A stretch of DNA of 64,000 bases from Bdellovibrio reynosensis (GCF_022814725.1 NZ_CP093442.1:2604001-2668000), one strand, 5' to 3'; shown: positions 26,100 to 35,849, counted from the first letter of the stretch. Notes: a model not told the origin generated them from the letters alone. Made by a program: numbers and translations.

Positions 26100-26969
26100 T
26101 TACTTAAGCATAGACTTAAGTGTTTTACCCATATCAGCAGGGCTGCGTGAAATTTTGCAACCGGCAGCTTCAAGAGCGGCAAATTTAGCTTCTGCTGTTC
26201 CTTTACCGCCACTGATGATCGCGCCAGCATGACCCATACGTTTACCAGCAGGTGCTGCTGCACCGGCGATGAACGCAGCTACTGGTTTTTTAAAGTGATT
26301 TTTAATGTATTCTGCTGCTTCTTCTTCAGCAGATCCACCGATTTCACCGATCATGATTACTCCGTCAGTGTCTGGATCTTCATTGAACATTTTTAAAACG
26401 TCGATGAAGTTAGTTCCATTCACAGGGTCACCACCGATACCAACGCATGTTGATTGGCCAAGACCTAATGCAGTCAATTGTCCAACAGCTTCATACGTCA
26501 ATGTACCTGAACGTGAAAGAACGCCGATACGACCTGGTTTATGAATGTGTGCTGGCATGATACCAATTTTGCATTCACCTGGAGTGATAACGCCTGGGCA
26601 GTTTGGACCGATCAAACGAGTGCGTTTGCCTTCCATGAAGCGTTTTACTTTTACCATGTCTAATACTGGAATACCTTCAGTGATACAAATCACAAGATCC
26701 AAATCAGCATCTACAGCTTCCATGATTGAATCAGCTGCAAATGGAGGTGGAACGAAGATGACAGAAGCGTTGCAACCCGTTTGTGCTTTAGCTTCTTTTA
26801 CAGTGTTAAACACTGGAAGACCGATGTGAGTCGTGCCACCTTTACCTGGAGTCACGCCACCAACCATTTTAGTTCCATAAGCCAATGCTTGCTCAGAATG
26901 GAATGTACCTTGAGCACCAGTAAAACCTTGGCAAATTACTTTCGTGTTTTTGTTAATAAGAATTGCCAT
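26100..26969 (-). CDS. sucD: Succinyl-CoA synthetase, alpha subunit
   Basis: 289 residues. The CoA-binding N-domain ([32 protein letters not shown]) and the phosphohistidine loop [12 protein letters not shown] (near 245) are intact. The conserved nucleotide/CoA contacts [17 protein letters not shown] are present. It makes succinate and ATP or GTP from succinyl-CoA in the TCA cycle, with SucC. AGGATAAG precedes the ATG. It starts 5 nt after sucC stops and is the last gene of the mdh-sucC-sucD operon. Confidence 0.98.
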
Positions 26970-26974
26970 CTGAC

Positions 26975-28138
26975 TTATCCTTTAATCGCAGCAACGATCT
27001 TTTTAGCTGCATCTTCGAGATTATCAGCAGGAGTGATGTTCAATCCGCTTTCTCTCAACATTTTTTTACCAAGCTCTACGTTTGTACCTTCAAGGCGGCA
27101 AACTAGAGGAACTTTTAAACCCAACTCTTTAGAAGCAGAGATTACACCGTCAGCGATGATGTCACATTTCATGATACCACCGAAGATGTTAACCAGGATG
27201 CCTTTTACGTTTGGATCTTTAAGGATGATTTTGAAAGCTGCTGTTACTTTTTCTTTGTTAGCGCCACCGCCAACATCCAAGAAGTTTGCAGGTTCAGCAC
27301 CGTGAAGCTTGATGATGTCCAAAGTAGACATCGCAAGACCAGCACCGTTCACCAAGCAACCAATGTTTCCATCAAGTTTGATGAAAGCAAGATCGAATTT
27401 CGAAGCTTCGATTTCAGAAGGATCTTCTTCAGCCAGGTCGCGCATCTCTACGATATCTTGATGTCTGTATAGAGCGTTTGAATCGAAATTCATCTTAGCG
27501 TCTAGGCAAAGAACATCGCCCTCTTTAGTAACAACTAGTGGATTGATTTCAGCAATTGAACAGTCCGTCGCGATGAAAGCGTTATAAAGACCTGTCATGA
27601 ATTTAACGGCTTTATTTACGATTTCAGGAGCCATCCCGATTTGGAAAGCTAGATCGCGAGCTTGGAAACCAGAAAGACCGATCACTGGATCGATGTCGAT
27701 TTTTTTAATCGCATCTGGGTTGTGTTCAGCAACTTCCTCGATATCCATACCACCTTCAGAAGAAGCCATCATTGCGACTCGTCCTGTAGCGCGGTCAACT
27801 AGGCACGCAACATAGTATTCTTTAGCGATGTTGCAACCTTGTTCGATATAAACTTTTTGAACAACTTTACCTTCAGGACCCGTTTGGTGAGTCACTAAAG
27901 TCATGCCGATCATTTTTTTAGCTAAGTCACTTACTTCGTCTAAAGATTTCGCGATTTTTACGCCGCCACCTTTACCGCGACCACCAGCATGGATCTGAGC
28001 TTTAACAACCCAAAGGCTTCCACCGATTTCTTTTGCAGCAGCCACTGCTTCCTCAGGGGAATGAGCCACTTTACCTTTTAAAGTGGCAACTCCGAATTTT
28101 CTGAGGACATCTTTGGCCTGATACTCATGAATATTCAT
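26975..28138 (-). CDS. sucC: Succinyl-CoA synthetase, beta subunit
   Basis: 387 residues. The ATP-grasp domain opens with [17 protein letters not shown], and has [18 protein letters not shown] for nucleotide binding. The metal site is in AEINPLVV, and the C-terminal power-helix domain has [11 protein letters not shown]. It forms the alpha2beta2 or alpha-beta enzyme with the adjacent sucD product. AAGGAA is 9 nt before the ATG. Gap to mdh 20 nt. Confidence 0.98.
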
Positions 28139-28158
28139 TTTTTTAAATTCCTTACAGA

Positions 28159-29103
28159 CTAGTTTACAGTTTTAAGAGCAGACACCAATGTACGAACCGC
28201 TTCAACCGACTTTTCAAACTCTGCTTTTTCGTCAGCGTTCAATTTCATGTCGATGATGCCTTCCATACCTTTGCCGCCGATTTTAGCCAGAACGCCAACC
28301 ATCAATTTATCGTTAACGCCGAATTCGCCGTGAAGTTCAACCGCAACCGGAAGAACGCGTTTTTGGTCTTTAAGAATTGCTTCTGCCATTTCAACTGCGC
28401 CACGTGCTGGAGCATAGTAAGCAGAACCTGTTTTTAAGTGGCCACCAATTTCAGCGCCCGCAGTTTTAGTTCTTTGTACGATCGCCGCGATTTTTTCAGC
28501 AGAAAGAAGATCTGTTAAAGGAATACCAGAAACTGAAGTCATACGTACAAGTGGAACCATCGCATCACCGTGGTTACCAACAACGATACCAGTTACGTCT
28601 TTAACAGAAACGTTCAACTCTTCAGCGATGAATGCACGGTAACGAGCTGAATCCAAGCAACCGCCCATACCTAGAACGCGCTCACGAGGGAAGCCAAGAA
28701 GTTGTTTTGCGTAAACAGCCATTACGTCCATTGGGTTACAAACAACGATTACGAATGAATTTGGAGCGTACTTTTTGATGCCTTCGCAAACGTCTTTTAC
28801 GATTTTCGCGTTAACGCCAACTAGTTCATCGCGGCTCATGCCTGGTTTACGTGGCATACCTGCAGTGATGATAACAACATCAGAATCCGCGATGTCTTCG
28901 TACTTGTTAGTGCCTTTTACTTTTGAATCGAACATTTCAATTGGAGCTGCTTGGAATAAATCCAAAGATTTACCGATCGCTGCACCTTCGTTGATATCAA
29001 GAATAACAACGTCGCCGATTTCTTTTTGAGCTGCCCAGTGAGCAGTTGTAGAGCCTACGAAGCCCGCGCCAATGACAGCAATTTTATTTCTTTTGTGAGC
29101 CAT
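28159..29103 (-). CDS. mdh: Malate dehydrogenase (lactate-dehydrogenase-like type)
   Basis: 314 residues from the ATG at 29103, which has AAGGAG 7 nt before it; the open frame beyond is not homologous to the family. NAD-binding [12 protein letters not shown], catalytic loop [14 protein letters not shown] with substrate arginines, [10 protein letters not shown], and the active-site His in [13 protein letters not shown] are all there. The arginine at the specificity position supports malate rather than lactate. First gene of the TCA operon with sucC and sucD. Confidence 0.96.
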
Positions 29104-29246
29104 GATAAATCTCCTTAAGGCTGCAATTTGAATGGAAAAATTTAAAACTTGCGTTGAAGGCCACATTCAATATCAAATTGAATATAGAGACAACCAATAC
29201 TGCTCGGTGCCTAGAGAGATAAGAGCAAGAACTGGACGTAAAAACC

Positions 29247-30002
29247 ATGAGCATGATCAGCCTCAAAGACATAACTGTCGCCTTTGACAGCCACGTTGTA
29301 CTAAAAAACGTGAGCCTTGATATCGCTCCAGGTGAAAGCTTTGTGATAGTGGGTCCGAGCGGGCAGGGGAAAACGACTCTGCTAAAAACGATGTCAGGAT
29401 TGATAACTCCGCAGAATGGCAAAGTTTTTATTGAACAGAGGGAATGGTTGACGCTAAGCAGTAAAGAGCGTCTGCCGCTGCTTAAAAAAATGGGAATTCT
29501 TTTTCAGAAGAATGCTCTTTTTGATTCTTTGACGTGCATTGAAAATATCTGCTTTCCACTGCGCGAAACCACAAAAGCAACGGATTGGGAAATTGCTAAA
29601 AAAGCAGAGTTTTTCCTGGATGCTGTAGGAATTCCCCACGCGCGGGATTTATATCCCGATGAAATTAGCGGAGGCATGCAAAAGAGATTAGGCATTGCCA
29701 GGGCCTTAGCACTAGATCCAGAGATCATTTTCTATGATGATCCAACAGCAGGTTTAGACCCGATCACTTCAAAAAAAATCATCGAATTGATTTTAAAACT
29801 TAAAAAAGAAAAAGGTTCGACAGTCGTAGCAATCACGAATGATATGAATCGTGCTTATCAAATGGCGGATAGAATTGGTGTCGTGGTTGACCAGCAATTA
29901 TTAATCACCGGAACTCCAGAACAAACGCAAGATCATCCAGATCCCCGTGTGCATCAGTTCGTACGCGGGCTTTTGCACGGTCCCCTGACAACCTTAGCTT
30001 GA
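29247..30002 (+). CDS. Mla-type ABC transporter ATP-binding protein (first copy)
   Basis: 251 residues. Walker A GPSGQGKTT (near 32-40), signature ISGGMQKRLGIARA, Walker B EIIFYDDPTAGLDP. The ISGGMQKR form is typical of the MlaF/Mce-associated ATPases, which power lipid movement between the membranes. A second paralogue lies at 30493 (Walker A GTSGTGKS). The ATG at 29253 is an alternative start. It heads a cluster with DUF2784, MlaF, two MlaE and an MCE protein. Divergent from mdh. Confidence 0.88.
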   Translation: MSMISLKDITVAFDSHVVLKNVSLDIAPGESFVIVGPSGQGKTTLLKTMSGLITPQNGKVFIEQREWLTLSSKERLPLLKKMGILFQKNALFDSLTCIENICFPLRETTKATDWEIAKKAEFFLDAVGIPHARDLYPDEISGGMQKRLGIARALALDPEIIFYDDPTAGLDPITSKKIIELILKLKKEKGSTVVAITNDMNRAYQMADRIGVVVDQQLLITGTPEQTQDHPDPRVHQFVRGLLHGPLTTLA

Positions 30003-30074
30003 TTTGTTTTGCTTAATTTCAAACTGCGAAACTATTTGCTGACGGCATAAATACGGCGTTGTGAATATCAATCA

Positions 30075-30461
30075 GTGTCTAAAACTCAGTTGGCCGATCT
30101 TATTCTTTATTTTCATTTTTTGTACGTGGTATGTGTGATCACGCCAGTGCCTTTGATTTTAATCGGCGCAAAACTTCATTGGAGGTGGATCCGCATTCCT
30201 TGGTTAAGACGCCTTCATGTTGCGATGATATTGTTTGTTGTGGTCGAATACTTAATCGGCATGATGTGCCCACTGACTGTTTTAGAAGAATACTTACGCC
30301 AAGAACCTGGACAGAAAAATATCTACCCACTGGGATTTTTCCCCGCTTTGATTTCAAAAATTTTATTTTCTGACTTTGAACCTTGGGTTTATGGTGCGAT
30401 TTACATCACGGGGGCGTCACTCATCGTTCTTCTTTATAGAAAAGTGCCTCCACGTCCTTGA
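30075..30461 (+). CDS. DUF2784 membrane protein
   Basis: 128 residues with a GTG start. Four hydrophobic segments; the opening ADLILYFHFLYVVCVITPVPLILIG, a middle WLRRLHVAMILFVVVEYLIGMMCPLT and a late FEPWVYGAIYI are the marks of this small membrane family. Function is unknown. It interrupts the two ATPase genes of the Mla-like cluster; the gap to the next gene is about 30 nt. Confidence 0.8.
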   Translation: MSKTQLADLILYFHFLYVVCVITPVPLILIGAKLHWRWIRIPWLRRLHVAMILFVVVEYLIGMMCPLTVLEEYLRQEPGQKNIYPLGFFPALISKILFSDFEPWVYGAIYITGASLIVLLYRKVPPRP

Positions 30462-30492
30462 CCCGTGATCTTTTACCCCTCACCATTATTTG

Positions 30493-31224
30493 GTGATTGA
30501 ATTCAGGAACCTCGTAAAGAGATTTGGAACCAGAACTGTGCTTAACGGATTAAGTTTGAAAATCCGTGAAGGTGAAATCATTTTCATTCTGGGGACATCT
30601 GGGACAGGCAAGTCCGTTTTACTTAAAAATCTCGTAGGTCTTCTAACTCCTGATGAAGGTGAAATTTGGATTGATAACCAAGAGGTTTCTAAGTTCACAG
30701 AGGAACAATATCTTCCCATCAGAAAAAAATGCGGAATGGTGTTTCAGCATCCTGCTCTTTTTGATTCCCTCACTATCTTTGAAAACGTGGCTTTTGGTTT
30801 GCGTCGCCACTATCAGCTGGATGAACAAACTATCAAAGACAAAGTGAATAAAGCTTTAAAGCTAGTACATCTAACCGGGATTGAACAAAAAAGACCGGCG
30901 CAAATTTCCTATGGCATGCAAAAACGCGTCAGCCTTGCGCGCACGGTAGCACTTGAACCTAGGATACTTTTGTTCGATGAACCGACAACGGGTTTAGATC
31001 CTGTGACAACTACAGCGGTGAATCAGCTGATTTTAGATTTATCTAGAGAGCTGAAGACAACATCATTAGTGGTTAGCCATGATATGAACTGCGCGCTTTC
31101 GATTGCCGATAGAATCGTCGTTCTAGATAAGGGACAAATCGTCGCCTTGGGAACTCCAGACGAATTAAAAAAGTCCGAGCATCCGTTAGTGAAGGATTTC
31201 CTTTCTGAGGTGCTTAGCGCATGA
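30493..31224 (+). CDS. mlaF: Mla-type ABC transporter ATP-binding protein (second copy)
   Basis: 243 residues from the GTG at 30493; a TTG one codon earlier is also possible. Walker A LGTSGTGKSVLLKNLVGLLTP, signature ISYGMQKRVSLART (SYGMQ rather than the usual SGGMQ), Walker B RILLFDEPTTGLDP, and the H-loop VVSHDMNCAL. The ISYGMQKR variation is unusual for a catalytic signature and may mean it forms a heterodimer with the other ATPase, whose signature is canonical. It overlaps the first permease by 4 nt. Confidence 0.88.
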   Translation: MIEFRNLVKRFGTRTVLNGLSLKIREGEIIFILGTSGTGKSVLLKNLVGLLTPDEGEIWIDNQEVSKFTEEQYLPIRKKCGMVFQHPALFDSLTIFENVAFGLRRHYQLDEQTIKDKVNKALKLVHLTGIEQKRPAQISYGMQKRVSLARTVALEPRILLFDEPTTGLDPVTTTAVNQLILDLSRELKTTSLVVSHDMNCALSIADRIVVLDKGQIVALGTPDELKKSEHPLVKDFLSEVLSA

Positions 31225-32000
31225 CCAAGTTTATCTCTATTTTAGATGAAATCGGGGGGACACTCCTGTTTCTGCAGAAAATTTTAGGCACTCTTTTTAA
31301 GAAAAAACTAAAAACCCACGACGTCTTTGAGCAGATTTGGAAAGTCACAGCTGAAAGCTTTTTTACTACAGCAATGGCAGGATTTTTCGTGGGCGCGATC
31401 ATGACTGTACAGTTTGCGATGCAAATGACGGAATTTGGTGCCTTGGGATATCTTGGTGGTCTAGCTACAAGTGGTACTTTTCGCGAAGTAGGACCCTTAT
31501 TGATTGCTTTCATGTTAAGTGGAAAAGTCGGCGCTTTTACTTCGGCTGAACTTGGTACTATGCGAGTCACTGAACAAATTGATGCCGTCAGATGCCTGGG
31601 TGCTGATCCCATGCAAGAAATCATTGTCCCAAGATTTATCGGCATCATCGTATCAAGCTTTTTCCTTTTAGGTGCAGGCTTGGTGATGTCCGTATTCGGT
31701 GGAATGCTGATGGGACAAGCCTTTGCGGGTGTAAACTTTGAAGAATACCTTCGTCATGTGCCTACAATTGTAAATCCCATTTCTATTCTAAATGGACTTA
31801 TTAAATGCTTTGCATTCGCGGTGGTATTAGCCACTGTTTGTACCTATAAAGGATTTTCTGCAACGGGCGGCGCAAAAGGTGTGGGTCGAGCTGTGGTAGC
31901 AACAGCGGTCACAACAATGATTTGTATCGTGGTGATGGATTGGATGACTAGCTTCTTAGCTGAAATCGTCTTAACAATGGTACGAGGTTACCGCTCATGA
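31221..32000 (+). CDS. mlaE: MlaE-type ABC permease (first copy)
   Basis: 259 residues with five to six membrane helices. Family marks: ESFFTTAMAGFFVGAIMTVQ, GTFREVGPLLIAFMLSGKVGAFTSAELGTMRVTEQIDAVRCLGADPMQEIIVPR. The E-x-G-x-M-x-x-x-E-Q-x-D-A motif in the cytosolic loop touches the ATPase. It moves phospholipid or another lipid with the MCE protein. Overlaps both its upstream ATPase and the next permease by 4 nt. Confidence 0.92.
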   Translation: MTKFISILDEIGGTLLFLQKILGTLFKKKLKTHDVFEQIWKVTAESFFTTAMAGFFVGAIMTVQFAMQMTEFGALGYLGGLATSGTFREVGPLLIAFMLSGKVGAFTSAELGTMRVTEQIDAVRCLGADPMQEIIVPRFIGIIVSSFFLLGAGLVMSVFGGMLMGQAFAGVNFEEYLRHVPTIVNPISILNGLIKCFAFAVVLATVCTYKGFSATGGAKGVGRAVVATAVTTMICIVVMDWMTSFLAEIVLTMVRGYRS

Positions 32001-32716
32001 TCGGTCTTATTGCTGAAACCTTTGCTGGTATCTTTCTTCCTCCGTTTCGCCGTAAAGAATTCATCGAACAACTGCATTTTGTTGGCAATAAAAGTCTAGT
32101 TATTATCGTTTTCTGCGTCAGTTTTGCTGCTGTCGTGACGATCTTAGAATCTTCATTTCACATGAAGCTTGTGATTCAGAATGACTCTATGGTACCGGGA
32201 TTTGCTGCATTACTTATTCTTCGTGAATTAGGGGCGGTGGTAACAGCTCTTTTACTGTGTTCACGGGTGGGCGCTGGATACGCTTCTGAAGTGGGTTCGA
32301 TGCAAATAACTGAACAGATCGATGCGCTTAAGATGCTAGGAATTGATCCGGTTAATTTCTTGGTCGTTCCACGGTTTTTAGCCTGCGTTCTTGGCGGGAT
32401 GATGCTGACTGTGATTGCCAACATGACTTGTATCTTTGCAGCAATGGCAGTGAGTGAAAGTTACCTTGGGTATACACCTTCGATGTTCCTAACCTCTATG
32501 CATCGCTTTGTTCAATTCAAAGATATTATTTTTGCGACGATAAAAGGCGCTTGTTTCGGGGGAGTGATTCCTCTCGTTGCATGCCATTTCGGATTTCGAT
32601 GTCAGCAAGGTGCGGAAGGTGTCGGCCGAGCGACAACAAACACCGTGGTCGTGGCTTCGATAGCAATTATTGTGATTGATTTTATTTTATCCTATACTTT
32701 TAGTCATCTTTACTAG
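31997..32716 (+). CDS. MlaE-type ABC permease (second copy)
   Basis: 239 residues. It carries the same family loop in a diverged form: ILRELGAVVTALLLCSRVGAGYASEVGSMQITEQIDALKMLGIDPVNFLVVPR. The protein is clearly paralogous to its neighbour but not a recent duplicate. The neighbouring pair most simply forms a permease heterodimer, in contrast to the MlaE homodimer of E. coli. The MCE gene starts 8 nt after its stop, with AGGAGA in between. Confidence 0.92.
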   Translation: MIGLIAETFAGIFLPPFRRKEFIEQLHFVGNKSLVIIVFCVSFAAVVTILESSFHMKLVIQNDSMVPGFAALLILRELGAVVTALLLCSRVGAGYASEVGSMQITEQIDALKMLGIDPVNFLVVPRFLACVLGGMMLTVIANMTCIFAAMAVSESYLGYTPSMFLTSMHRFVQFKDIIFATIKGACFGGVIPLVACHFGFRCQQGAEGVGRATTNTVVVASIAIIVIDFILSYTFSHLY

Positions 32717-32724
32717 GAGAACGT

Positions 32725-33501
32725 ATGAAGGTTGAAACCAAGGTTGGTTTGCTAGCTCTTGTATCTGTGATACTTATCGTGGTCTTCGCTTACCTCATGG
32801 GTTTCATCTCTCCTTTTTCCAACACCAAAGAATTAAACGTTATGTACAACTTTGCTGGTGGTATCGAAGAAGGTTCCCCCGTGCGAGTGATGGGTATCAA
32901 GGTTGGAAAAGTTAAAAAGATTTCTTTTGATCCGTCTTTCAAAATGGATAGCGGCGAAGAAGTTAAACTTCGCTTAACCGTGACTATTGATAAAAAAGCC
33001 TGGACCAGTGTCCGTAAAGATTCCAAGTTTTTCATTAACTTAGCTGGTGTAATTGGGGAAAAGTTTCTGGAAATCTCGCCAGGCAGTGCAGATGCCGCAG
33101 AATTTAATAGTGGCGATTTCGTTCGCGGGGAAGATCCTCCAAGAATCGATCAATTGATTTCGCAAAGTTATGGTTTAGCCGGTAAAATCGTTGCATTGGT
33201 TGAAAAAAATGAAGGCTCCATAACAAATATGATTCAACAGCTTGATAAATTGACGACGAATTTTAATAAGACGCTTGTCTTATTAGATAAGGGAACTAAG
33301 AATCGTGATGTAGCTAGATTGCTGGATAATGCGGTCAAAATCAGCGATAACATGGTTTATTTGACAGATAATTTGAGATCTAAAAAAGCGGAAGAAACCT
33401 ACGACCTTGTTCATAAACTTCTTTGGAGGTTGGAACCGCTGGATGGAAAAGCTCTTAAAAAGTTCTTCCAAGAAGAGGGTGTAAAAGCTCGCCTTCTATA
33501 G
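32725..33501 (+). CDS. mlaD: MCE-domain (MlaD-like) lipid-transfer protein
   Basis: 258 residues. One transmembrane anchor (VGLLALVSVILIVVFAYLMGF) and a single MCE domain at about 38-115 (YNFAGGIEEGSPVRVMGIKVGKVKKISFD). The C-terminal 140 residues are helical (LIWRLEPL-type, DKLTTNFNKTLVLLDKGTK), longer than in E. coli MlaD, and could form an extended tube or contact an outer-membrane partner. It is the substrate-binding part of the transporter. Ribosome binding site AGGAGA. Confidence 0.92.
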   Translation: MKVETKVGLLALVSVILIVVFAYLMGFISPFSNTKELNVMYNFAGGIEEGSPVRVMGIKVGKVKKISFDPSFKMDSGEEVKLRLTVTIDKKAWTSVRKDSKFFINLAGVIGEKFLEISPGSADAAEFNSGDFVRGEDPPRIDQLISQSYGLAGKIVALVEKNEGSITNMIQQLDKLTTNFNKTLVLLDKGTKNRDVARLLDNAVKISDNMVYLTDNLRSKKAEETYDLVHKLLWRLEPLDGKALKKFFQEEGVKARLL

Positions 33502-33520
33502 ATCTCCTTTGGAGGTTTCT

Positions 33521-34162
33521 ATGCAAAAACTTTTTATTCGATCTTTAATAGTTCTTTTGGTTAGCGGCGCGGTCCAAGCGCAGGCGTCGGTAAATCTCAG
33601 TGCTGATGCCAACACAGTGTCTGAAAAAGCTCATTCCATCGAATCAGAATACAGCCAAAACATGCGCGATGAGCGTCTTTCGACCTCTTATGCATCTAAT
33701 TTAAAAATGCGTGACCATAGAAAAGTGGGCGCGGGATTCTTTTTCGGCGGTTCCGCTGGAATGGCCGGATTAAACTTGGAACTTAACTTTGAAGATGCTG
33801 ATGGTGTTTTGGCAAGTTTTGGGCAGGGTCCAGGGTATGATGCTTTCCAATTATCATGGAAGCACACATTTGAAGGGGATTATTTATCTCCTTATACAAC
33901 CTTAGGATATTCCCGCTGGTACAATTCTGACGGCGCACGTCTTGATAGTTCCGATATCTTGGACCGCGTTCTAACAACTAAAGAAAAGAAATCCGGTCAG
34001 TTTGGTACGAACTTCATCAATACGACGTTCGGTATTCAATATAACCAGCTTTCTGGCGACTTAGCCGGAATGTCTTTTTATGGTGAGTTAACCGGCATGT
34101 ATGAAGTAAGCAGATCAATGCTTATCCCGAACGGTTCTGTGGGTGCTCTTTATTATTTCTAA
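33521..34162 (+). CDS. Putative outer-membrane beta-barrel protein
   Basis: 213 residues. GGAGG is 7 nt before the ATG at 33521, which starts a signal peptide (MQKLFIRSLIVLLVSGAVQAQA); the earlier TTG at 33509 is discounted. The mature protein has alternating amphipathic strands (AGFFFGGSAGMAGLNLELNFED, LSPYTTLGYSRWYNSD, TTFGIQYNQL) and ends with GSVGALYYF, the C-terminal phenylalanine signature of barrels. It follows the MCE gene by about 19 nt and may be an outer-membrane part or target of the Mla-like system. Confidence 0.7.
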   Translation: MQKLFIRSLIVLLVSGAVQAQASVNLSADANTVSEKAHSIESEYSQNMRDERLSTSYASNLKMRDHRKVGAGFFFGGSAGMAGLNLELNFEDADGVLASFGQGPGYDAFQLSWKHTFEGDYLSPYTTLGYSRWYNSDGARLDSSDILDRVLTTKEKKSGQFGTNFINTTFGIQYNQLSGDLAGMSFYGELTGMYEVSRSMLIPNGSVGALYYF

Positions 34163-34230
34163 ACTTATCTAAAAGCCCAGTGGCATTTATCAATGCGGGT
34201 CGCCGATAAGGGCACATTCGACGCCGTTGT

Positions 34231-34290
34231 CCGGTCTTTCACTTCTCTCCGACGTACCTGACAGGTACGCCTGCGTTTCGCGAAAGATCC
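34231..34290. repeat. GC-rich inverted-repeat intergenic element B
   Basis: Arms GGTCTTTC (34233-34240) and GAAAGATCC (34282-34290) pair with one bulge around a perfect GTACCTG-A-CAGGTAC hairpin (34254-34268). TACGCCTGCG (34266-34275) repeats exactly element A. The structured region may extend to about 34345. No ORF is convincing here. Confidence 0.55.
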
Positions 34291-34372
34291 TCCGCCTTGC
34301 GCCTATACCATTCCCGCCAACCCTAGTTTCCCACCTGTGAAAGTCGCTCAGGGAGCGGGTTTTAGGAATAAA

Positions 34373-34428: not shown

Positions 34429-34539
34429 TTACTTCTTAGAAGCTTTTTTAGTAGCTTTCTTTGTAGTTTTCTTAGCGGCTTTTTTAGTAGTTTTCTTAGC
34501 TGCTTTCTTAGTAGCTTTTTTTGCTGCTTTCTTTGCCAT
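34429..34539 (-). CDS. Tiny lysine/alanine-rich (KATKK, histone-H1-like) protein
   Basis: 36 residues: MAKKAAKKATKK then four more AAKKTTKK/ATKK-type units and an ASKK end. The whole protein is a repeat of two lysines and two small residues, like the C-terminal tails of bacterial H1-like proteins (for example Hc1-type and KATKK proteins). A perfect TAGGAGG lies 5 nt before the ATG and a strong terminator follows, so this is a real gene although far below common ORF cut-offs. The overlapping longer frame (34362-34559) is its shadow. Probable nucleic-acid binding by charge. The same style occurs in the bL21 tail at 2522. Confidence 0.8.
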   Translation of the reverse strand: MAKKAAKKATKKAAKKTTKKAAKKTTKKATKKASKK

Positions 34540-34686
34540 GTGCTCCTCCTAGGATGCAAACGTTGTTGTTGTTTCTCTAACTTAAAAACTTTACTTCCTT
34601 AAGTCTTCACAATTTGACCAGCGCGGTCAACAAAAAATTTACCTTGCATATTTTTTGCGAGCGCTAGTTTCCGTGAAGGTGGTTCC

Positions 34687-35424
34687 ATGCTTATCTTTTT
34701 CTCGATTTCGCTGCTCGGATACTCATTAATTGATCGATCTATCACTTCGATCGCGCGAGATTTTGCGTTCTCTCAACAATTGGTTCGATTTCTTTCGATC
34801 TTGAACCTTGTTGTGATCGCTTTAATCACCTTAAGTGGAGTATCCGCACCCTCACTCTGGCTTTTCATCGGCATTCTTTTGATAACTTTAAAGTTTTTTC
34901 CGGATATTTTGCGTTTTTTCTTATTAAGAAGATTGCGAACAGCACTTATTCCACTTCTTGATAGCGTGATACTAAGCTTGCAGACAGGAAAATCTTTCCG
35001 CATTTCTTTGTTAACAGCAATTGAAATTCAAGATGGTTGGATCCGTCATCAGATGATGGAGATGTACGAATCTTTAGCGATGTCGGAAAATGTCATCGCC
35101 GTGAAATCCGCACTGCTCAAGGATTTGCGCCAAGAGTTTTTAGAAATCGATCGATCAGGAACTCGCTGTGTGGAACAAGTTCGCGCACTTCGCAGAGAGC
35201 TTAAGATGCTTGAAGATTTTCGACGTAGGTCCGGACAAGTAACGCAGCAATTGAAGATGCAGGCGATAATTGTCACCGCTCTTTTTCTGGCGCTATTAAC
35301 TTTTGTAATTACGCAATTTGGGTTCCATCAACATCGTGTTTTGATTCTTTTTTCCGCTTTAATCTTTTCAGGTGGGCTTATTTTCATATTTTCTGTGGGT
35401 CGGAGGATGAAATGGAAGGTATAG
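34687..35424 (+). CDS. TadB-like type II/IV secretion inner-membrane protein
   Basis: 245 residues. Two N-terminal hydrophobic helices, a helical cytosolic domain of the T2SF type (IPLLDSVILSLQTGKSFRISLLTAIEIQDGWIRHQM to about 180) and two C-terminal helices. The domain order matches TadB of Flp-pilus systems. The gene overlaps the TadC-like gene by 13 nt. No TadA ATPase or secretin lies in the window, so any Tad machine is spread over the chromosome. There is no strong ribosome binding site. Confidence 0.65.
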   Translation: MLIFFSISLLGYSLIDRSITSIARDFAFSQQLVRFLSILNLVVIALITLSGVSAPSLWLFIGILLITLKFFPDILRFFLLRRLRTALIPLLDSVILSLQTGKSFRISLLTAIEIQDGWIRHQMMEMYESLAMSENVIAVKSALLKDLRQEFLEIDRSGTRCVEQVRALRRELKMLEDFRRRSGQVTQQLKMQAIIVTALFLALLTFVITQFGFHQHRVLILFSALIFSGGLIFIFSVGRRMKWKV

Positions 35425-35849
35425 CACCACCATTACAGCTGTTACTAAGCGTAAAAAGAGCGATTGAAAAGGGTCACTCGGTGAAACAAGGCATTCACAC
35501 GTACTTAAAAAAATCAGAAGGTGAGTTTCCGGAAGTTGTAACGCGCTGGCTGGCGTTATTACAACAGGGGCAAGACCCTAAAATCTGCATTCAAAGCCTG
35601 TCTTCGATCCATCGCCGAACCCTTTTGCAGGTTTTAGAGCGCGGATTAAAAGGTGAATCGATTCACAATATACTTTTGCGGCTTGAAGAAGAGATCATTG
35701 AGGCATGCCATGAGGAGCTAACCAATAAAATTGCCCGCTTGCCATTTATTTTAATGATTCCCCTTTTATTATTTCAATTTCCCGCATTTTTAATGCTCCT
35801 TTTTGGGCCTCTTCTGCAAAATTTTTTTCACTCTTTGGGAGGGGGGTGA
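35412..35849 (+). CDS. TadC-like T2SF-domain protein (short)
   Basis: 145 residues. A helical domain (LLSVKRAIEKGHSVKQGIHTYLKKSEGEFPEVVTRWLALLQQG) followed by a C-terminal hydrophobic hairpin (ARLPFILMIPLLLFQFPAFLMLLFGPLL) corresponds to the last part of a T2SF/TadC protein. Typical TadC proteins are about 300 residues, so it lacks the N-terminal helices. It may pair with the TadB-like product to build one complex. It overlaps the upstream gene by 13 nt. Confidence 0.6.
   Translation: MEGIAPPLQLLLSVKRAIEKGHSVKQGIHTYLKKSEGEFPEVVTRWLALLQQGQDPKICIQSLSSIHRRTLLQVLERGLKGESIHNILLRLEEEIIEACHEELTNKIARLPFILMIPLLLFQFPAFLMLLFGPLLQNFFHSLGGG

Follow-up and report, generated by a model that had tools for sequence, protein, structure and literature searches.

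A predicted MCE-type transporter of Bdellovibrio with a heteromeric ABC core and one putative degenerate ATP site

A cluster of tightly packed plus-strand genes at positions 29247-34162 of the window (the whole 64,000 bp stretch of DNA that was analyzed, part of a 3.58-Mb complete genome from the genus Bdellovibrio) encodes two MlaF-type ATPases (A1 and A2), two MlaE-type permeases (PA and PB), one MCE protein, an 8-stranded beta-barrel protein and a DUF2784 protein. The doubling of ATPases and permeases raises the question of whether the locus specifies one transporter with four different core subunits or two transporters built from homodimers. A first-pass annotation had listed the same set of genes and proposed an asymmetric ATPase heterodimer with a degenerate site; the open reading frames, the Pfam matches and an AlphaFold2 model of the barrel bear out the gene content. 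Coordinates are those of the window unless stated otherwise.

Organization of the locus

The cluster begins with A1 (29247-30002; 251 aa; ABC_tran match at 1e-32), followed by the DUF2784 membrane protein gene (30075-30461; 3e-19) and A2 (30493-31224; 243 aa; ABC ATPase match at 8e-37), for which GTG at 30493 is the likely start, the frame being open also from TTG at 30490 (244 aa). The permease genes PA (31221-32000; PF02405, 7e-59) and PB (31997-32716; PF02405, 1e-62) come next, and at both the A2/PA and PA/PB junctions the start of the downstream gene overlaps the stop of the previous one in the four bases ATGA. PA contains the coupling-region motif ELGTMRVTEQIDAV (31548-31589) and PB the motif EVGSMQITEQIDAL (32288-32329). 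The MlaD-type MCE gene (32725-33501; PF02470, 1e-17) and the barrel gene (33521-34162; no Pfam match) complete the cluster; the latter likely starts at ATG 33521, with GGAGG ahead of it, and is open also from TTG 33509. Promoter and terminator scans returned nothing exceeding chance.

The solved structures nearest to A1 include Acinetobacter and E. coli MlaF as well as MceG (PDB), MlaF ranks first for A2, and MlaE and YrbE1A are the closest to PA. The NCBIfam MlaF model is matched, yet under its equivalog cut-off. The MCE protein has an N-terminal transmembrane helix, one MCE barrel, a long helix (141-189), further helices and a conserved C-terminal tail; its structure model (pLDDT 74) has Mce1 chains as its best Foldseek matches, with MlaD also matched. 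The model of the barrel protein has 8 strands (mean pLDDT 90.6), with the OprF and OmpA barrels as best PDB matches, and the protein, predicted to reside in the outer membrane, carries an N-terminal hydrophobic (signal-like) helix and a C-terminal Phe.

Two of these genes are peripheral. The barrel gene, kept in the Bdellovibrio lineage and in certain other classes, is missing next to the MCE gene in distant ones; it is accessory, and is rejected as a universal component. The DUF2784 gene, which had been listed with the cluster, is indeed present in the cluster, but it occupies the position between A1 and A2 in only two close relatives and is regarded as a local passenger, not a transporter component. 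Searched for in the complete genome, MlaA (PF04333) and MlaC (PF05494) both gave no match, whereas the E. coli and Caulobacter controls were positive; the operon contains no STAS protein. Because the genome is without MlaA and MlaC, the system is not an E. coli-type Mla, and the earlier label 'Mla-like' is apt.

The flanking regions contain several recognizable genes. Divergent genes upstream of the operon (26100-29166) correspond to mdh-sucC-sucD, with names assigned from their sequences, and mdh-sucC-type TCA genes lie divergently upstream in distant relatives also (L026 and L156). A dispersed repeat of ~130 bp directly follows the operon (34195-34335). At least 40 sites across the genome resemble it, and its predicted RNA fold is no better than that of shuffled sequence. 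Beyond it are a minus-strand ORF (34431-34541) whose 36-aa product, a lysine/alanine repeat peptide (MAKKAAKKATKKAAKKTT...), is similar to the tail of histone H1-like proteins, and genes for two T2SS-F/Tad-like membrane proteins (34687-35849). Elsewhere in the order, in other families (L035, L038, L042 and L048), the MCE gene is followed by a similar T2SS-F/Tad-like pair.

Further MCE-related genes are located elsewhere in the genome. An MCE locus outside the window (G000:C1:939805-943434) has one permease and one MlaF-like ATPase (940556-941263) that has lost the signature (PGRIR), the catalytic Glu (DDP) and the switch His (SSYD); because all three are lost together, a homodimer of this ATPase would have no consensus site. 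Homologues of it are present in 44 of 60 genomes of the order, with Walker A mostly kept. A two-MCE-domain protein, possibly PqiB/LetB-like, is encoded far from any MlaE gene (G000:C1:2802298-2802825).

ATPase motifs and the composite ATP sites

Each site of an ABC dimer is formed by the Walker A, Walker B and H-loop of one subunit and the signature of its partner (PMC10569789). Placed by alignment with MlaF and MceG, the Walker A (GPSGQGKT; 29352-29375) and the signature (SGGMQ; 29667-29681) of A1 are intact, but its catalytic Glu is replaced by Asp (YDDP for YDEP, in IIFYDDP; 29724-29744) and its switch His by Asn (TNDM, in ITNDM; 29832-29846). A2 has the Walker A GTSGTGKS (30592-30615) and canonical LLFDEP (30967-30984) and VSHDM (31072-31086) motifs, but a deviating SYGMQ signature (30907-30921), as the first-pass annotation had read it. 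Because each site combines both subunits, an A1:A2 dimer would have all three defects in one composite site and a canonical second site, whereas an A1:A1 or A2:A2 homodimer would be damaged at both. The Walker A of A1 is kept, and ATP binding is therefore expected there.

The same asymmetry extends across 76 A1 sequences (75 loci and the window) and 81 A2 sequences, in which the non-consensus residues all fall in one composite site. The catalytic position of A1 is D in 54 and E in 22 sequences, and the switch position is N in 62, S in 10, T in two, G in one and H in one; every A1 is without Glu and/or His, and all 76 have the signature glycine (SGG). Conversely, Glu and His are each present in 81/81 A2 sequences, and the second signature residue is Y in 69, F in 10, H in one and unreadable in one. 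Residues of the predicted dead site thus drift, and those of the predicted live site stay constant. A second, partly overlapping sample (66 A1 and 79 A2 from named genomes) has the same pattern, and the MlaF paralogues from single-ATPase loci of the same order all have the canonical SGGMQ, DEP and H (16/16).

The SYGMQ signature had been taken as the sign of a degenerate site, but a pattern scan of named genomes includes, among the matches listed, SFGMQ in apparently single-ATPase systems with normal E and H. They include MlaF proteins of Cloacimonadota, with the ATPase gene adjoining an MCE gene (L099, 4821-6414) and the permeases elsewhere, and that of a Rhodospirillaceae MAG with one MlaE and one MlaF. 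Since SFGMQ occurs in such systems, Tyr or Phe at this position may be tolerated, and SYGMQ alone is rejected as proof of a dead site. The prediction of a degenerate site itself stands, resting on the loss of E and H in A1, which had been overlooked.

These observations also bear on whether a heterodimer might hydrolyze ATP at both sites, with the substitutions only tuning activity and the asymmetry fitting the shape of the substrate, as proposed for YrbE1A/B. This is the best placed of the alternatives and is nonetheless unlikely: it accommodates the SFGMQ systems and the 22 of 76 A1 proteins that keep Glu, but the Glu-keeping A1 proteins are still without the switch His, A2 never varies at E or H whereas A1 drifts at both, and comparable substitutions define degenerate sites in other ABC transporters (PMC12038006; PMC7544095). 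Residual hydrolysis at the degenerate site is possible, because those A1 proteins keep Glu, and one A1 and that of a Myxococcota-labelled locus (L156) keep His.

Conservation and linkage of the core genes

PA orthologues were sought in 291 genomes of the Bdellovibrionota and split from other MlaE proteins by score; about half of the genomes have a clear, well-separated orthologue. In 80 loci fetched from the phylum and compared, the order A1-A2-PA-PB-MCE is the rule, with most genes at 39-93% identity, and because this core recurs across the phylum the cluster is not a chance association. Conservation of the ATPase pair in relatives, suggested at first pass as a check, is thus found across the sampled loci. 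A1 is not seen whole at four loci: it is ~4 kb further upstream in G109 and on a separate contig, again with the DDP/TND motifs, in G216 and G287, and the locus stops at a contig end in L056. In G094 (L026) PA has neither PB nor MCE as a neighbour, and L067 and L077 have no adjoining MCE gene.

Outside the Bdellovibrionota, where a pattern scan of named genomes gives a lower bound, two of three genomes examined from the candidate phylum around RBG_13_61_14 have the full set. So does a Deltaproteobacteria MAG labelled Myxococcota in the tree (L156); its A1 has DSP and retains His. None of 198 genomes of Desulfomonile's phylum has an orthologue at 1e-40, a cut-off taken from the score gap in the Bdellovibrionota, by which weaker relatives would be passed over.

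In phylogenetic trees PA (100/98) and PB (100/99) are separate clades and A1 forms one group (91/74); A2 is placed apart from it, but its support is weaker and its bootstrap had not settled. The internal branching of these groups is similar, and A1 branches are longer than those of A2. The duplication is thus older than the diversification of the phylum, or the system was transferred early between groups. Direct-coupling analysis of ATPase-permease docking, with 100 non-redundant sets (effective number ~90), gave scattered hydrophobic positions as its top pairs.

A1 with one permease and A2 with the other could in principle form two distinct homodimeric transporters that share the operon and the MCE protein by chance. 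Walker A is intact in either ATPase taken alone, both permeases contain a full MlaE domain, and the other MCE loci of the genome are of the homodimer type. However, an A1 pair would be without the switch His, and mostly without the catalytic Glu, at both sites, and an A2 pair would have Tyr in both signatures; the defects of A1 and A2 are complementary and never swapped (76 A1 and 81 A2 sequences), there is only one MCE protein, and the order kept is A1-A2-PA-PB rather than A1-PA/A2-PB. We consider this arrangement very improbable. Least credible of all is a working A2 homodimer with A1 as a pseudo-ATPase in decay, or as a regulatory subunit standing in for MlaB: A1 does evolve faster than A2 and is unlinked in two genomes, but it is retained even where unlinked, and it keeps Walker A, the Q-loop and a perfect SGGMQ throughout the phylum, a signature that serves only the ATP of a partner ATPase.

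The asymmetric ATPase heterodimer put forward at first pass is the reading that the sequences support, through complementary motif loss, opposite conservation, linkage or at least co-occurrence of the genes and mirrored trees. Also in its favour, each of the three other MlaE loci of the genome has a single permease and a single ATPase.

Relationship to known transporters and a proposed mechanism

With PF02405 in both permeases, a PF02470 protein and MlaF-type ATPases, the system belongs to the MCE (type VIII) ABC transporters; its core is predicted to be heteromeric throughout, with a single degenerate ATP site. It resembles E. coli Mla (MlaFEDB with MlaC and MlaA) in its ATPase, permease and MCE families, and its MCE model matches MlaD; however, it is not a six-component Mla sensu stricto, having neither MlaA nor MlaC and two distinct ancient clades each of ATPase and permease, and in place of the MlaF and MlaE homodimers the locus encodes four core subunits that all differ, with one site predicted to be dead. 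Nor is it an actinobacterial Mce system, which has six MCE proteins and a single MceG with a long C-terminal extension; here there is one MCE gene, and the ATPases are 251 and 243 aa long. In mycobacterial Mce1 a permease heterodimer, YrbE1A/YrbE1B, sits over an MceG homodimer (PMC9882608), so that a permease heterodimer is in itself not new. The likeness is in the two different MlaE-type permeases; Mce1 has one ATPase and six different MCE proteins (Mce1A-F), the Bdellovibrio system two ATPases and one MCE protein. Veillonella MlaEFD similarly works without MlaA and MlaC and has its MCE protein linked to a barrel, but there the outer-membrane barrel is fused to MlaD (PMC10665443), whereas in Bdellovibrio the barrel has a gene of its own, which is missing next to MCE in distant classes.

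The closest parallels for the ATP sites are CFTR, TAP, TM287/288, BmrCD and MsRv1273c/72c, in which one site is without a catalytic Glu, a switch His or a good signature and the other is canonical (PMC12038006, PMC10569789); in MsRv1273c/72c the degenerate site, where Asp replaces Glu and Gln replaces His, has been measured (PMC12038006). All of these have exporter-type membrane domains and none is an MCE (type VIII) transporter. A search of freely accessible papers found no account of a two-MlaF, heterodimeric MlaF or degenerate-site MCE transporter.

The cluster most likely encodes an inner-membrane MCE transporter in which A1 and A2 lie under PA and PB as obligate heterodimers, with slow or no hydrolysis at the degenerate site and a one-ATP cycle. 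We infer its assembly, the loss of hydrolysis at one site, the ring stoichiometry, the lipid substrate and the direction as follows. The obligate A1:A2 heterodimer would drive an obligate PA:PB heterodimer, topped by a ring of the one MCE protein, presumably a homohexamer, that would carry lipid across the periplasm towards the outer membrane; in the Bdellovibrio lineage the small outer-membrane barrel protein may assist. At the degenerate site, formed by the Walker A, Walker B and H-loop of A1 and the signature of A2, ATP would be bound but hydrolyzed slowly or never, and the site would remain closed and serve as a hinge. Hydrolysis at the canonical site (Walker A, Walker B and H-loop of A2 with SGGMQ of A1) would power each cycle with one ATP, as in CFTR, TAP, TM287/288 or MsRv1273c/72c.

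It is likely, with rather less assurance, that this system is the first among MCE lipid transporters to combine a fully heteromeric ABC core with a permanently degenerate, non-hydrolyzing site, and that it is ancient in the Bdellovibrionota and shared with a small candidate phylum. If so, the one-ATP hinge cycle of the CFTR/TAP style arose independently in a trans-envelope lipid transporter. The degenerate-site design probably originated separately in this unrelated type of ABC transporter. Both the direction of MCE lipid transport, inward or outward, and its coupling to ATP are debated. The distinguishable half-sites and membrane halves would permit mutants to be made site by site, which is impossible in homodimeric MlaFE. 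The transporter would be a core envelope system of predatory bacteria, in which outer-membrane lipid homeostasis is not explicable by MlaA and MlaC.
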